Under the pieces are notes generated by a model, which was not told the origin of the DNA, did not search any database, and saw only the letters and a list, made by a program, of their open reading frames with translations. The translations under genes were made by a program, and so were the position numbers. Shown one piece after another: positions 14,018 to 53,835 of a stretch of DNA of 64,000 nt. Position 1 is the stretch's first letter. Each line of letters starts with the position of its first letter. Where the stretch lies: the NCBI GenBank assembly GCA_009778065.1, contig WRKM01000019.1, positions 1 to 64,000 of the forward strand, read 5' to 3'. This stretch comes from Oscillospiraceae bacterium. Its GTDB lineage: Bacteria > Bacillota > Clostridia > Oscillospirales > Ruminococcaceae.

Positions 14018-15133
14018 TTAATTAAATTCTTTATGAGTTATATCTGTAAGCAGAGGACCGTTTACCGTGAATGTACCGCACATCATATTACTGTTATGAA
14101 AATCGGGATTCACTCTTCCTTCAACCAAAAACTCCATTTCCGTCATATTCGGAAAACTTGCAAAGGTTCGCTTCAACAAATTTGAAGTCACTATTGCCGC
14201 CATGCTTCCACGAGAAGCCCTAAAATCTTGAATCAGGCTTAAATCAATATAAATCTTGTCCCCCTCATACCAGATACTTTTAATGCTGAAACCTTGATGA
14301 AGATATATTGCCTTTACGGCATCTTCAAGGAAATTTTCTTCCGATATGTTCATGGTAACGAAACTAAAATTTTCCTCATCGCTATAATCAGTATTTTTTA
14401 TTTCGGCATAATCCCAAAGCTTAATTGAGATAGTGTTTAAATCGTCAGTAACATATTCATCAACACGACCTTGAACCTCGATTTTCTCAACCTTGTCAGG
14501 GGTGAGAAGATAGGAATGAATATCTCCATCTTCACTGTTATCGGTAAAAGTGACTGCGTAATAATAAATGTCTTCGGAATAACTCAAGGGGAAGAAAATA
14601 TTGCAATACCGCCAAGACCACCAACCAAGCCCTTGAATAAGGTCATCGTAATAGAAATTTATTCCGTCATAGGAACGAACGCGGATAAACCTAAGGTCAT
14701 ACAAGTTATAATCAAAATTTAATATCGCATATTTTACGGGCGCTTCCATTTCTTTCGGGGTATTTAAAATAAGAGTTTCTTTCCTTTTCAGCGGTTCTTC
14801 CGCAGGCACGGAAACGTAACCAATATACAAAGGCGTGTCGTTTATAATATCTATGCTTTCATAAGAACCATGAAAAAAGTCAGAAGTATATTCGTTATTA
14901 TTTATTGAAGTTTCATCGTCTTCAAAGCCATCTTCGGTTTTATCATCTTCAAAGCCATCTTCGGTTTCATCATCTTCAAAAATTTCTTCGGGTTCTTCCG
15001 GTTCAGATTCGGTTTCTGTGTCTTCGGCATTATCTTCAAAAATCTCTTCGGAATACGGCTCTGGTGTTTCCCCAAAGGTGCAAGATGATAGTAATAGCAA
15101 AGCCGATATTAGTATTAATAAAAGTGTTTTCAT
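14018..15133 (-). CDS. hypothetical lipoprotein with acidic tandem repeat
   Basis: Lipobox LLLSSC; EDGFEDDKT/EDGFEDDET repeat. Confidence 0.7.
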   Translation of the reverse strand: MKTLLLILISALLLLSSCTFGETPEPYSEEIFEDNAEDTETESEPEEPEEIFEDDETEDGFEDDKTEDGFEDDETSINNNEYTSDFFHGSYESIDIINDTPLYIGYVSVPAEEPLKRKETLILNTPKEMEAPVKYAILNFDYNLYDLRFIRVRSYDGINFYYDDLIQGLGWWSWRYCNIFFPLSYSEDIYYYAVTFTDNSEDGDIHSYLLTPDKVEKIEVQGRVDEYVTDDLNTISIKLWDYAEIKNTDYSDEENFSFVTMNISEENFLEDAVKAIYLHQGFSIKSIWYEGDKIYIDLSLIQDFRASRGSMAAIVTSNLLKRTFASFPNMTEMEFLVEGRVNPDFHNSNMMCGTFTVNGPLLTDITHKEFN

Positions 15134-15135
15134 TT

Positions 15136-17007
15136 TTATATACCTCTTTGGAGATAATACCCCAATTCATCTTTTTTTATTTTAAACTTCTTCGCGCCTA
15201 TGAAGTTCTTTAAAAATTCATCTAATTGCTTTTCATCAACAGGTTTCGGCTGAAAGAATGTGTTCATATTATGTGCGTAAATCGGGTACAACCGCAATGT
15301 TACGGCTTTTTTGTCAAAGTATAATTGTGAGATAATACCGTAAGGTAATTTTCCCGAAGCGTCAAGGTCGATGCCCGTGGTATTAAAAACAAAATTTCCG
15401 AGCGAGTATATCACTATTTTCTTCGATAAATGCTCGGCGCCTATAGGTATGTGGGGTCCGTGTCCCACGATTAAATCCACCCCTGCTTTAATTGCCCTTT
15501 GAGCGATAGCCCGTAAGTGCAAATGCCTTCCGTCAAAATCCTTACCCCAGTGCGGGGAGAGTATAATAAACGCTTCGGGATATTCCTTACGGTATTGCTC
15601 TATACGTTTAATGAATGAGCAGTTTTCGATAATATCCGTGATAAATGCCGCTCCGGTATTCTCTCCTAAGCAATAATGGCGGAAAAGCTTGTGCCTTTTT
15701 TCAAGATAATAGCCGTAAGCATTGAAAATTATGACCCTGTGTCCGTTTATTTTCAAACAAACGGGCGTTTCAGCATCCCGTATATTTGTGCCTGTTCCCA
15801 CGGTCAATATTCCTGCTTGTTCAAAATATCTTTTCGTTTGCCTGCAACCCACCGAATCGAAATCCATCATGTGGTTGTTCGCGAGCATTACCGCATTTAT
15901 ATTCATCCGCTTATAACAATTTACGGTTTTTTCCGGATTCGCGCCGAGAACGAACCCCAAATACTTACCCGTTTGTTGTGACTTATCATAAACGGGACTG
16001 AGTACACATTCGGAATTAACTATATTAAAAGACTCTTTTGTTATAAACTGCTTAACATTCTCAAACGAGAAATCGTACCCTTCATCGCCGTAGCGTTGGA
16101 TAGGGTCGTCAATACCCCGTTTTATCCGCCATTTCGTATAGCGTTCTCCGCAATATGTATCACCGCATATTGTAAGAATATTTTGAGATACATTTATCCA
16201 CGTATCTGTGTTTTTATTTAAATCAATACAAGACTTTTCATTTATACAAAAGAGAGCGTTCAGAATCGCCGTATCCCGTTCTAACGGGGTTCGGGCATCT
16301 CCGACTGATATAAAAAGGGTTTCATTTTCATACTCTGCCATTGCTATTGCGTGAAAAGCAAACTCATCTCCGAAACATAAATATCTCATTATGTTTCGGG
16401 TAGAACCGAGAACACTTTCACATTCTACATATGTTTCATTATGCACGACCCGGTTTTTATTAAGATTATTCTCAACATCAAATGCCAGAAGCTCGGCGGC
16501 GACCCGTGAGAGTAGTTCGACTGTAAAATATTGCGGATTTTGTTCGTAAAATCTTCCCGTTAAGTTTTTAATGCTCTCATTTGGTATACCCCATCCATCT
16601 CCGATTTGCCTTAACTTAGCGACTGTACTGTTTTTCTTTTTCCCGACAGAATTAAAAATGTGTCCTCCGATTGTGATTATCGCGTCGGGTGCATTTATTG
16701 CCGCGGCGGCGCAGAAAAGGGTAAAAAGACTGACTTTTTCGCCTTTTACAAGCCCAAGTGAGTTTACCGAATTGCTCTCTTTTGCGGCTTTTCCGCTTAC
16801 AGTTACCTTATCGCTCCAGAGTAACGCACCTTTATTTATAAGCGTCAGAAAATGATACAGCAGGAGCGGTAATCCTAACCCGCCGCAGAGCTTACGGTTT
16901 ATATCTCCGCATGAATAAATGACGGCGTTTTTATCCGCAGAAAACACCATACAAATCGGTCGGCTGTCTTTGCTGTCCATCGTCATATCCACTTCGCAAT
17001 TTCCCAT
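15136..17007 (-). CDS. CapA-family (poly-gamma-glutamate biosynthesis-like) protein with N-terminal degenerate S11 peptidase-like domain
   Basis: C-terminal half: NAVMLANNHMMDF, SPHWGKDF, VGHGPHIPIGAE, IVIYSLGNFVFN. N-terminal half aligns by eye with D-Ala-D-Ala carboxypeptidases (SVNSLGLVKGEKVSLFTLFCAAAAINAPDAII). Confidence 0.8.
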   Translation of the reverse strand: MGNCEVDMTMDSKDSRPICMVFSADKNAVIYSCGDINRKLCGGLGLPLLLYHFLTLINKGALLWSDKVTVSGKAAKESNSVNSLGLVKGEKVSLFTLFCAAAAINAPDAIITIGGHIFNSVGKKKNSTVAKLRQIGDGWGIPNESIKNLTGRFYEQNPQYFTVELLSRVAAELLAFDVENNLNKNRVVHNETYVECESVLGSTRNIMRYLCFGDEFAFHAIAMAEYENETLFISVGDARTPLERDTAILNALFCINEKSCIDLNKNTDTWINVSQNILTICGDTYCGERYTKWRIKRGIDDPIQRYGDEGYDFSFENVKQFITKESFNIVNSECVLSPVYDKSQQTGKYLGFVLGANPEKTVNCYKRMNINAVMLANNHMMDFDSVGCRQTKRYFEQAGILTVGTGTNIRDAETPVCLKINGHRVIIFNAYGYYLEKRHKLFRHYCLGENTGAAFITDIIENCSFIKRIEQYRKEYPEAFIILSPHWGKDFDGRHLHLRAIAQRAIKAGVDLIVGHGPHIPIGAEHLSKKIVIYSLGNFVFNTTGIDLDASGKLPYGIISQLYFDKKAVTLRLYPIYAHNMNTFFQPKPVDEKQLDEFLKNFIGAKKFKIKKDELGYYLQRGI

Positions 17008-18301: not shown

Positions 18302-19591
<1,290 letters not shown>

Positions 19592-50164: not shown

Positions 50165-51964
50165 ATGGAGATTAAAGGAAATTCTTTTGCGGCAATGTTA
50201 ATAAATGACAAAGAATTTGATGAATACGAGCTACCCGAAGAGATAACCTCTCGCTTTTTCGCTATTGAAAACCTGACCGCAAGCGATTACGGCGAAACAT
50301 TTCTGCTCGAGGAAAAAGACAGTGGTAAGCGTTATGTCTTAAAAAGTTATAAAAAGTCGAGCCGTTCGGGTGATATACTCGAAGCTGAGTTGTTACGCAC
50401 TTTTGAACATAAAGGCTTACCCAAATACGAAGAGGGTACGGAAACCGAAGACGCCTTTTTCACTTTGCGCGAACACATCGAAGGCGTCACTTTAGAACAG
50501 TATTTTCATAATCATAAACCGAGCGAAGGAAAAACTGTAGGTATTATTATTGAAGTATGCGAGATTCTTTCGTTTTTACACTCTCAACAAGCACCGATTA
50601 TTCACAGAGATATAAAGCCTTCTAATATTATCATTGATGTTTCCGGTGGCTCGTCTAATGCTTCCGGTGGTTCACCAAATGCCTCCGGCGGCTCGCCGGT
50701 TAAGTTGATTGATTTCGGGATTTCACGGAGATACTCCGAAGACGCGCCCACCGATACCGTTTGTTTCGGTACGCAGAAATTCGCACCGCCCGAGCAGTAC
50801 GGCTTCTCCCAGACCGACAGCCGCGCCGACCTCTACGCACTCGGCGTTGTTCTTCGTTACCTACTCACAGGCTCGCCCGAACCGACCGTACAGATTAGTA
50901 ACAAAGCACTTGAGCGGATTGTCGCAAAAGCCACGGCGTTCGCGCCGGAACAGCGTTATCAGAGTGCGGCGGCGTTCAAAAAGGCGTTACAGAACTACAA
51001 CAAGCGTGTTAAACCTGAGGCACTGATTTCAATGTTAGCCGCGGTTTTTGTCATATCTGCCGGCGTATTTTTTGCCTTAAAACATACGGACATTTCTACC
51101 TACGAGCCACCGGAGATTTTACCCACACCGGAAACTTCATCCACACTTGAGATTTCAACCGCATCGGAAACCTCATCTACACCGGAAACATCGTCCGCGT
51201 CGGAAACTTCACCCGTGCAGGAAATCCCCGACGGCGTTTATGTTTTTAAAGAACCGCTGATTGAAAAAGCCGCGCGTTATGTTCTTCAAAAAAACGAGGA
51301 CGAGTGGATTTTCCCGGATGAATTGAAAACCGTTACAGGCATTTATATTATCGGGGAAGAAGTCGCGGCTTCGAGAGATGAATATTGGAATATTTACGGG
51401 CAGTATAGAGATGGAATCACACCATATGGTTTTACGCAAAGTTTAGAAGACCTAAATGCAATGGAAAACTTGATTGATTTACACATTATGGCGAATACAA
51501 TTGCCGATATTTCGCCGATTGCCGAGAACAAGCAACTGCGCGTGGTAGACTTTGAACGGTGCGAATATATTACAGATTTTTCACCGCTCTTAAATCTGCC
51601 GCTGTTACGTGATATAAAAATAACTCATACGGACGTTGATGATTACACTATTTTTAAGGAAATAAGCACTCTTTACGGGCTGAGAATTCAGTATACTACG
51701 CTTGGCAGTATAGCCGAACTTGGATTTCAACCTAACATAGAAATTTTAGTTTTGCATGGCTCACGCAGGATTGAAAACTTGAATGGTATTGAAAATTTTC
51801 CGTCACTAAAAGAACTCAATATTGACAACACGAGTATTACGGATTTTTCACAACTTGACAATTTGCCTTACTTGAAACACCTGCAAATAAGCGCGGATAT
51901 GCGCCAATACCTGCATACGTTGAATCGCGATGACGTTGAGGTGTATACACCGCAAATGCCCTAA
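50165..51964 (+). CDS. transmembrane serine/threonine protein kinase with Ser/Thr-rich stalk and LRR-like ectodomain
   Basis: IIHRDIKPSNIII, LIDFGISRRY, FGTQKFAPPEQYG; TM ISMLAAVFVISAGVFFAL; PETSS-type repeats; C-terminal LRR/internalin-like blocks. Confidence 0.87.
   Translation: MEIKGNSFAAMLINDKEFDEYELPEEITSRFFAIENLTASDYGETFLLEEKDSGKRYVLKSYKKSSRSGDILEAELLRTFEHKGLPKYEEGTETEDAFFTLREHIEGVTLEQYFHNHKPSEGKTVGIIIEVCEILSFLHSQQAPIIHRDIKPSNIIIDVSGGSSNASGGSPNASGGSPVKLIDFGISRRYSEDAPTDTVCFGTQKFAPPEQYGFSQTDSRADLYALGVVLRYLLTGSPEPTVQISNKALERIVAKATAFAPEQRYQSAAAFKKALQNYNKRVKPEALISMLAAVFVISAGVFFALKHTDISTYEPPEILPTPETSSTLEISTASETSSTPETSSASETSPVQEIPDGVYVFKEPLIEKAARYVLQKNEDEWIFPDELKTVTGIYIIGEEVAASRDEYWNIYGQYRDGITPYGFTQSLEDLNAMENLIDLHIMANTIADISPIAENKQLRVVDFERCEYITDFSPLLNLPLLRDIKITHTDVDDYTIFKEISTLYGLRIQYTTLGSIAELGFQPNIEILVLHGSRRIENLNGIENFPSLKELNIDNTSITDFSQLDNLPYLKHLQISADMRQYLHTLNRDDVEVYTPQMP
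50642..50698 (+). repeat. 21-bp coding tandem repeat (SGGS[SP]NA) inside kinase domain
   Basis: TCCGGTGGCTCGTCTAATGCT / TCCGGTGGTTCACCAAATGCC / TCCGGCGGCTCGCCG. Confidence 0.85.
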
Positions 51965-52017
51965 TTGTGATTTTCATAAAAAATCTTGACTTTTTAGGGA
52001 AAATGTGATAGTATTAA
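51965..52017 (+). repeat. 53-bp promoter repeat, copy A
   Basis: Matches 53034-53086 at 49/53 by eye; contains TTGACT (51986) - 17 nt - TAGTAT (52009-52014) with TG extension. Confidence 0.85.
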
Positions 52018-52033
52018 CAAACGGAGGTTTATA

Positions 52034-52930
52034 ATGAAAAAAATTATTTTATTTATAGCAATTTCTCTGACTGTTTTTATAACAGCGTGCGATGTTAAAG
52101 AGAGTACAAACGAAACGCCGCGCGAAATTCCGTCAAATGAGCAATCAATCGAAAACATTGTTAATAGCGGCACGGAAGAGCCAAAAGACAAAGCACTGCT
52201 TTCCGCTATTAGTGAATTTCCGTTAGACAGTTTTACGGGACTTGACGGCATTACTATTTCAAAAACCGAAGCAACGGGTTTTGCCGGAAATATTTTGATT
52301 TTTGATTTCGGGTATATCAGGGAGCCGTCGCTTGAATATCTGACGACATTTAATACGCCTGATTTATTTGACTTTGACAGACTTGAATTCAACGAAGATT
52401 TTGACAGTAATGTATCAATTAATTACATTAAAGCGGAAAAGGGCGATATAATCAACGGGTTTCAAGTTGAAGCTGCAAGTTTTGCCGTTTCTGTAATGAA
52501 TTTTGAAGATGAAAACGGTGATATTTATCAAGAAATAAATGTAATTGAATGTACGGTGGTGTTTTCCGGAACGCATACGATTACGGGCGTGATGTACCGT
52601 GTTCCGACTGACCCTGATTATATTGATATGGGCGGAGATTTGCTTTTTTATCCCGATGCAAGTAGTGAGCGTTTCTTTCCTCTTCCATATTCTTTTACGT
52701 CTTTCCCGACACAGGTGTTTGATTTTGATTCAAGGTTCGCACTCCGAGGAGACACTACACGTCTGTTTTTAGGAAATGAAAAAGATTATGCAAATGATAT
52801 AGGTGAATATTTCAAAGAAAGCGATTATATTCAATTTGAAATAACTGTTACAGATTTGGCTGTCATGTATCACGAAACAGGAAGCGCAAGAAGTGGCGGA
52901 AAATTGAGCGAGTATAAAATAATCAATTAA
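52034..52930 (+). CDS. hypothetical lipoprotein
   Basis: Lipobox FITAC; GGAGG RBS upstream. Confidence 0.75.
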   Translation: MKKIILFIAISLTVFITACDVKESTNETPREIPSNEQSIENIVNSGTEEPKDKALLSAISEFPLDSFTGLDGITISKTEATGFAGNILIFDFGYIREPSLEYLTTFNTPDLFDFDRLEFNEDFDSNVSINYIKAEKGDIINGFQVEAASFAVSVMNFEDENGDIYQEINVIECTVVFSGTHTITGVMYRVPTDPDYIDMGGDLLFYPDASSERFFPLPYSFTSFPTQVFDFDSRFALRGDTTRLFLGNEKDYANDIGEYFKESDYIQFEITVTDLAVMYHETGSARSGGKLSEYKIIN

Positions 52931-52969
52931 ATAAAGATGAATGAGAGTGAGTGGGTTTGTGGTCTTACG
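52875..52969 (+). repeat. ~95-bp gene-tail repeat, copy 1
   Basis: Matches 53598-53692 with 4 differences by eye; spans 3' end of the 52034 CDS. Confidence 0.9.
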
Positions 52970-53033
52970 GTCATGCTTGATAAAAATAAATTTAATGTTT
53001 ATAAGAGTAGGGTGAAGAAATAACAGAATCATA

Positions 53034-53086
53034 TTGTGGTTTTCATAGAAAATCTTGACTTTTTTGCGAAAATGTGATAGTATTAA
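53034..53086 (+). repeat. 53-bp promoter repeat, copy B
   Basis: TTGACT (53055) - 17 nt - TAGTAT (53078-53083), matches copy A. Confidence 0.85.
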
Positions 53087-53139
53087 TAGGCAATTGCGAG
53101 TTTCGCAATTGTCTATATAAGGCTTAGGAGGATTTTTTC

Positions 53140-53640
53140 ATGTTAAAGATTGCTGAAAAAATAATTTGCGTTATAATGGTAACAATAATAACGCTGTCGG
53201 TGACGGCGATTTCGATATCGGCTTCTTCCGGAATAACAATTGAAGAGTTCGCAGAAGAAATCAGAGAAAAATATAAAACCCTTTATACCGATGAAATAAG
53301 TCATTATATCATCGACTATACGTTATGGGTCGTCATTCCTGACCCGCAGTTTGTTTACACCTTCAATGACAGTATCGAGGATGCATACGAAGTCATGGAA
53401 GCCACGCTTGACAGCTCTCTGCCGTACACGGGCAACGTGGACGAATTCGAGTTTGCCCCTTTTCCCGATATGTCCGGCACTTCGCAAAACCCGTCCGGCG
53501 GAGAAATGAGAGAACCGACGGATAACCCCGACACCGGGGTTAGTATTACTTCGGGAGTTGTTATTTCTATAGCTTTTACGGTTCTTGCGATTTTGATAAA
53601 CAGGAAGTGCAAGAAGTGGCGGAAAATTGAGCGAGTATAA
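53140..53640 (+). CDS. hypothetical secreted/membrane-anchored protein with NPDTG-TM-basic tail
   Basis: Signal peptide; C-terminal NPDTGVSITSGVVISIAFTVLAILINRKCKKWRKIERV. Confidence 0.75.
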   Translation: MLKIAEKIICVIMVTIITLSVTAISISASSGITIEEFAEEIREKYKTLYTDEISHYIIDYTLWVVIPDPQFVYTFNDSIEDAYEVMEATLDSSLPYTGNVDEFEFAPFPDMSGTSQNPSGGEMREPTDNPDTGVSITSGVVISIAFTVLAILINRKCKKWRKIERV

Positions 53641-53692
53641 AATAATCAATTAAATAAAGATGAATGAGAGTGAGCGAGTTTGTGGTTTTACG
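53598..53692 (+). repeat. ~95-bp gene-tail repeat, copy 2
   Basis: Matches 52875-52969; spans 3' end of the 53140 CDS in a different reading frame. Confidence 0.9.
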
Positions 53693-53737
53693 AAAGTTGT
53701 GCAACATTCACAATTTTCGCACCGGAAATTCTACATC

Positions 53738-53780
53738 AAAAAAGGGGTTTGTGTGCTTCATGCACACCAAATCCTTTTTT
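53738..53780 (+). terminator. intrinsic terminator
   Basis: AAAAAAGGGGTTTGTGTGC-TTCAT-GCACACCAAATCCTTTTTT stem-loop with T-tract. Confidence 0.7.
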
Positions 53781-53835
53781 GTTTGTGATAAAATGAGTGG
53801 TGAGAAACTTTAATAAAGAATTGAGGAGAGTTTTC

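Follow-up and report, generated by a model that had tools for sequence, protein, structure and literature searches.

The window analysed here, a 64,000-nucleotide stretch from the genome of an Oscillospiraceae bacterium, contains a locus that starts at position 50165 and consists, all on the + strand, of gene K, a border repeat P, gene 1, a border repeat T, a spacer i, second copies of the two repeats (P' and T') to either side of gene 2, and a hairpin. Gene K (50165–51964) is an ORF for a protein with a Ser/Thr protein kinase domain (Pfam Pkinase, 1.4e-28) and leucine-rich repeats (LRR_4), and its stop codon abuts P (51964–52017), which, like the gene 2 promoter P' (53033–53086), carries TTGACT-17-TAGTAT with TG before the second (-10) hexamer. 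Gene 1 (ORF, 52034–52930) encodes a 298-aa lipoprotein with the lipobox ..ITAC; its final codons, comprising the last beta-strand and the stop, together with 39 bp of 3' UTR make up T (52875–52969). Beyond the 63-bp spacer i (52970–53032), which runs from T to P', gene 2 (53140–53640) encodes a 166-aa exported protein with a signal peptide, an N-terminal domain and an NPDTG-TM-basic tail, whose last residues (NRKCKKWRKIERV) and stop are supplied in another frame by T' (53598–53692), which also holds 3' UTR. A long hairpin with a T-run (inverted repeat I4, 53737–53781), by eye likely a terminator, lies 3' of T', and no terminator hairpin was seen between T and P', either among the inverted repeats or by eye. 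Both genes are presumably expressed.

By repeat finding, T and T' are identical at 91 of 95 positions at a spacing of 723, and P and P' at 50 of 54 at a spacing of 1069 (49/53 over the stretch given in the original prediction). As had been predicted, the four T/T' differences (52885 C/T, 52952 T/C, 52954 G/A and 52964 C/T) are all transitions; those between P and P' are two transitions and two transversions. Of the four T differences a single one falls in coding sequence: gene 1 encodes Ser either way (AGC/AGT), while in the frame of gene 2 Arg becomes Cys. The ORFs 52034–52930 and 53140–53640 terminate as originally quoted, and two frames of one tail indeed end two proteins. Both repeats are far above chance: within-window BLAST gave E values of 1e-37 (T) and 2e-15 (P), and the next best ungapped matches in 863 kb of the genome were 47/95 for T and 37/54 for P (as background, the best matches of 15 other upstream 54-mers were 30–34, with one at 46). 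Their edges are abrupt, with 93% and 96% identity inside the repeats of P and T, respectively, against 15–45% in the adjoining 20-bp bins.

Further copies elsewhere, for which the original prediction had suggested a search, did not turn up for T, which was sought across all 2.55 Mb of the assembly and occurs there exactly twice; nor was T found in any of 70 other genomes of the genus. A 22-mer of T had no exact match among 85,462 species, each represented by one genome, a set from which the records of this or a very near genome may be omitted. P, searched at full length in 863 kb and genome-wide as a 29-base core pattern, has two exact core sites, and hence none beyond P and P', and two sites with 3 mismatches. 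The bodies between these borders are unrelated, as had been claimed: the gene 1 and gene 2 proteins gave no match to each other above chance, and the local alignment score of the DNA between the borders was 21, compared to a mean of 21.4 for shuffled sequences. That the spacings differ (1069 and 723), and hence that this is no plain tandem duplication, was also correctly stated, but the difference follows from the body lengths.

We then asked which of the two genes is the native owner of T. Gene 1 belongs to a family of lipoproteins found in other species of the genus as well; it had no Pfam match, a PDB fold search gave no match at E below 0.001, and a scan of named genomes was without a match. 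Its homologues finish at the same place and with the same pattern (GSSAKVVDMKVI and LEARIEEIN, compared to RSGGKLSEYKII in gene 1), and, against a profile of homologues built without gene 1, the true tail scored better than 494 of 500 shuffled tails (a moderate result, at 6/500) and better than the other two frames. In an AlphaFold model of gene 1 built from 10 family sequences (mean pLDDT 76, pTM 0.73), a confidently placed strand, 287–296, lies inside T, and the last block has a pLDDT of about 90. The closest orthologue, in the congener G080 (55% identical, and 70% in the whole-locus search), lies in another context on a contig that ends where the tail should start, and no second contig continuing it was found in G080.

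Gene 2 has a single paralogue in the genome, on contig C22 (49% identical in the alignment), whose C-terminus is NPDTG-TM-KRERLFIKK. The two align up to the TM segment and diverge at the start of T', and since homology stops there, gene 2 has lost its own end. In the gene 2 frame T' reads NRKCKKWRKIERV, with a net charge of +6, so that by chance gene 2 has a strongly basic tail of 13 residues that would suit the inner side of a membrane. The right-hand join lies just 3' of the gene 2 TM segment, at AAACAGGAAG, and the sequence at the join in gene 2 (ATAAACAGGAAG) is similar to TTAAAAAGGGAA in the C22 paralogue, so that a join through microhomology at the gene 2/T' boundary is plausible. The N-terminal domain of gene 2 occurs in a few congeners, and in the two that were checked with Pfam (G027 and G033) it precedes a C39-like peptidase, an assignment that in one of the two falls under the curated cut-off; both family members of the present genome are without the peptidase and end in NPDTG-TM-basic. 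At a guess, the gene 2 product might be a membrane- or wall-anchored partner of C39-like peptidases. Because the ends of the gene 1 homologues agree and the gene 2 paralogue diverges at T', we take gene 1, with moderate to good confidence, to be the native owner of T; to gene 2, T is foreign. This is a clear natural case of a single duplicated DNA segment providing a structured beta-strand in one protein and, in another frame, a functional-looking membrane tail in an unrelated one.

We propose, with a probability of about 0.6, that the locus is the scar of a duplication that left a chimeric gene: a promoter-lipoprotein-end unit was duplicated, and one body was then replaced or complementary deletions occurred. 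Since both borders of gene 1 recur, one duplication of P-gene 1-T accounts for both repeats, and divergence is similar at the two borders (4/54 for P and 4/95 for T). The terminator adjoins T' and not T, as expected under duplication provided that the original flank stayed with the downstream copy. The events may have been ordered as follows. The whole unit, from P through the lipoprotein gene to the 3' end T, would have been duplicated in tandem; the downstream copy would have lost most of the lipoprotein body, with the gene 2 body coming to lie between P' and T', either imported from elsewhere or as the outcome of complementary deletions in two copies of an ancestral operon P-gene 2-gene 1-T; and gene 2, deprived of its own stop, would now end in T' in the other frame. 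Recombination between P and P' is predicted to leave gene 2 only, and that between T and T' gene 1 only. A supporting analogue exists at C2:83938–91574, where in the arrangement P-gene-T-P-gene-T two large proteins have in common a promoter (93%) and a 3' end with terminator (85%), the bodies being otherwise unrelated; the out-of-frame lipoprotein fusion on C22 described below lends further support.

A single clean duplication is weakened by spacer i, which has no match to the kinase end upstream of P nor to the rest of the genome; being unlike the sequence before P, it calls for at least one more event. As a candidate relic of a duplicated kinase end the spacer was rejected: by eye its translation weakly resembles the kinase (LDKNKFNVYKSRVKK and LNRDDVEVYTPQMP), but the DNA score is within that of shuffled sequences. 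No strain or species with an ancestral (undeleted or single-copy) arrangement was found, the 70 other congeneric genomes, one per species, being without the locus. In the whole-locus search, 9 of 71 genomes of the genus, this one included, gave a match; outside this genome the strongest was to the G080 gene 1 orthologue and the rest were short, several of them looking like promoters and in some cases lying ahead of genes such as pyrG.

Four other readings were weighed against a duplication scar. The 628-bp piece comprising spacer i, P' and the gene 2 body may instead have entered the 3' end of gene 1 by an insertion with a long target duplication, for example if a small T-bearing circle had integrated through a single crossover and left T on both sides. 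Such an origin would find parallels in the gene ends repeated around toxin-antitoxin pairs at C1 35968/36878 (ParE), C7 70461/71336 and C22 12814/13642, but alone it leaves unexplained why the insert holds a 93% copy of the gene 1 promoter, and we regard it as possible though rather unlikely. It is improbable that the borders are regulatory sequences of an ordinary, dispersed kind (a common promoter and 3' UTR) whose likeness is due to gene conversion or convergence: the P core does resemble ordinary promoters of pyrG and other genes in congeners, but T includes coding sequence and neither repeat has a next best match in 863 kb above the 37/54 and 47/95 given above. P as merely a common promoter type was, on the same 37/54, rejected as the sole cause.

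The unlike bodies within shared borders bear out one part of the original prediction; its other part, a cassette-exchange locus, goes too far and found no support. The geometry of the repeats would permit either gene to be lost by recombination, but a locus of active cassette exchange or phase variation, where a dedicated recombinase swaps bodies between P and T, is very improbable given that T has two copies only and was not found in the 70 congeneric genomes, and that gene 2 lies alone between T and T'. No integrase or recombinase gene is present within 52970–53597, a piece that encodes gene 2 only; TIGR02249 (integron integrase) gave no match over its curated cut-off in the whole assembly, and the attC cores RYYYAAC and GTTRRRY are absent from T, P and their junction, on which grounds an integron was rejected. 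Plain tandem duplication with one body decayed, or an assembly artefact, we find hardly credible. The arrangement is tandem and short repeats can mislead assemblers, but the bodies are no more alike than shuffled sequences, both genes are intact, the differences between the copies sit at fixed positions, and the site is internal to a contig of 64 kb; moreover, decay would fade gradually, and the sharp edges and unrelated bodies therefore rule out plain duplication with decay.

Border repeats of this kind were also surveyed more widely, as clusters of repeats of 45–400 bp, at least 85% identical, 0.25–6 kb apart and not inside one gene. There were 14 such clusters in 863 kb of this genome (where the window and contigs C7, C21, C22 and C26 were non-random choices), 10 in 300 kb of a complete congener genome and a single one in 468 kb taken from three other families of the order, some of the clusters being ordinary tandem paralogues. 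Contigs C1–C6 (6 clusters in 600 kb) and the congener (10 in 300 kb) together give about 1.8 per 100 kb; at that rate, by our own arithmetic, 468 kb should hold about 8, compared to the 1 seen. Besides C2:83938–91574, two loci, on C6 and C22, come near to the case in the window. At C6:44053–52183, seven tandem lipoproteins have a common ribosome site, signal peptide, lipobox and linker DNA, with bodies that are mostly unrelated (DUF5050, DUF6273, others unassigned); an intergenic relic of a gene tail (..EIYVSQ) is seen there ahead of the gene starting at 50826. Beside the gene 2 paralogue, at C22:12530–12757, the start of a lipoprotein gene is joined, out of frame, to a copied 3' end of an upstream gene; the two meet at a 17-bp word that also occurs upstream of that gene. 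Small genes with repeats of 46–187 bp between them were noted at C4:52332–60813.

Five of the clusters are associated with toxin-antitoxin genes as assigned by Pfam (ParE; HEPN with nucleotidyltransferase; MazEF; RelB; and a Gp49/RelB/HicB array), an apparent enrichment that could be explained by survival bias, since loss of such a pair via the repeats would be punished. At C1:35968–37046 (ParE), C7:70461–71411 (HEPN with nucleotidyltransferase) and C22:12814–13752 (MazEF) the pairs are enclosed by duplications of 76–173 bp that copy either the end or the start of the adjacent gene. The repeats at C2:43632–45607, of ~125 bp with a promoter plus hairpin, are array-like (three copies 95–98% identical and a fourth 84%) and separate toxin-antitoxin genes, namely Gp49 with an HTH partner, RelB and HicB. 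On C21 the same two pieces are found with 1.8 kb and two genes between them (14071–14155 and 15983–16051) and joined (18712–18864), and appear to be a filled copy and an empty (or deleted) copy of one site. We tentatively suggest, while holding it doubtful, that the genus has a frequent, hitherto undescribed habit of recombination that puts foreign bodies (surface proteins, lipoproteins, toxin-antitoxin pairs) between duplications of 50–200 bp of resident borders and keeps creating chimeric genes and new C-termini, the locus in the window being one product. If true, such a habit could explain the spread of lipoprotein repertoires and toxin-antitoxin insertions without transposases or integrons, and would be a larger lead than the single locus.

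In bacterial genome evolution, tandem duplication with a deletion at the join point or internally creates chimeric genes. Like such chimeras, this locus has repeated borders, unlike bodies, abrupt joins and a foreign 3' end on one gene; unlike ordinary ones, the promoter and 3' end of one gene here flank a wholly unrelated body, a spacer is left unexplained and translation of the 3' end uses another frame. Integron cassette arrays, in which toxin-antitoxin genes are common, likewise have genes between similar repeats, as in the toxin-antitoxin examples found across the genus, but the repeats here take in a promoter and coding sequence, and there is neither an integrase over the cut-off nor an attC. 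Literature searches, partial in their coverage, found no description of the border-repeat pattern. Recent protein C-termini have arisen by stop-codon loss in yeast and Drosophila (Andreatta et al., 2015; PMC4494051), and here too the new C-terminus comes from sequence previously unused in that frame; this sequence, however, is the duplicated coding sequence of another gene brought in by rearrangement and not the gene's own 3' UTR. In polymorphic toxins, which exchange C-terminal cassettes (PMC3482391), a constant 5' gene body is combined with variable 3' toxin cassettes, whereas here the coding bodies differ almost throughout and neither toxin nor immunity genes take part; in both, recombination links constant borders to different bodies.
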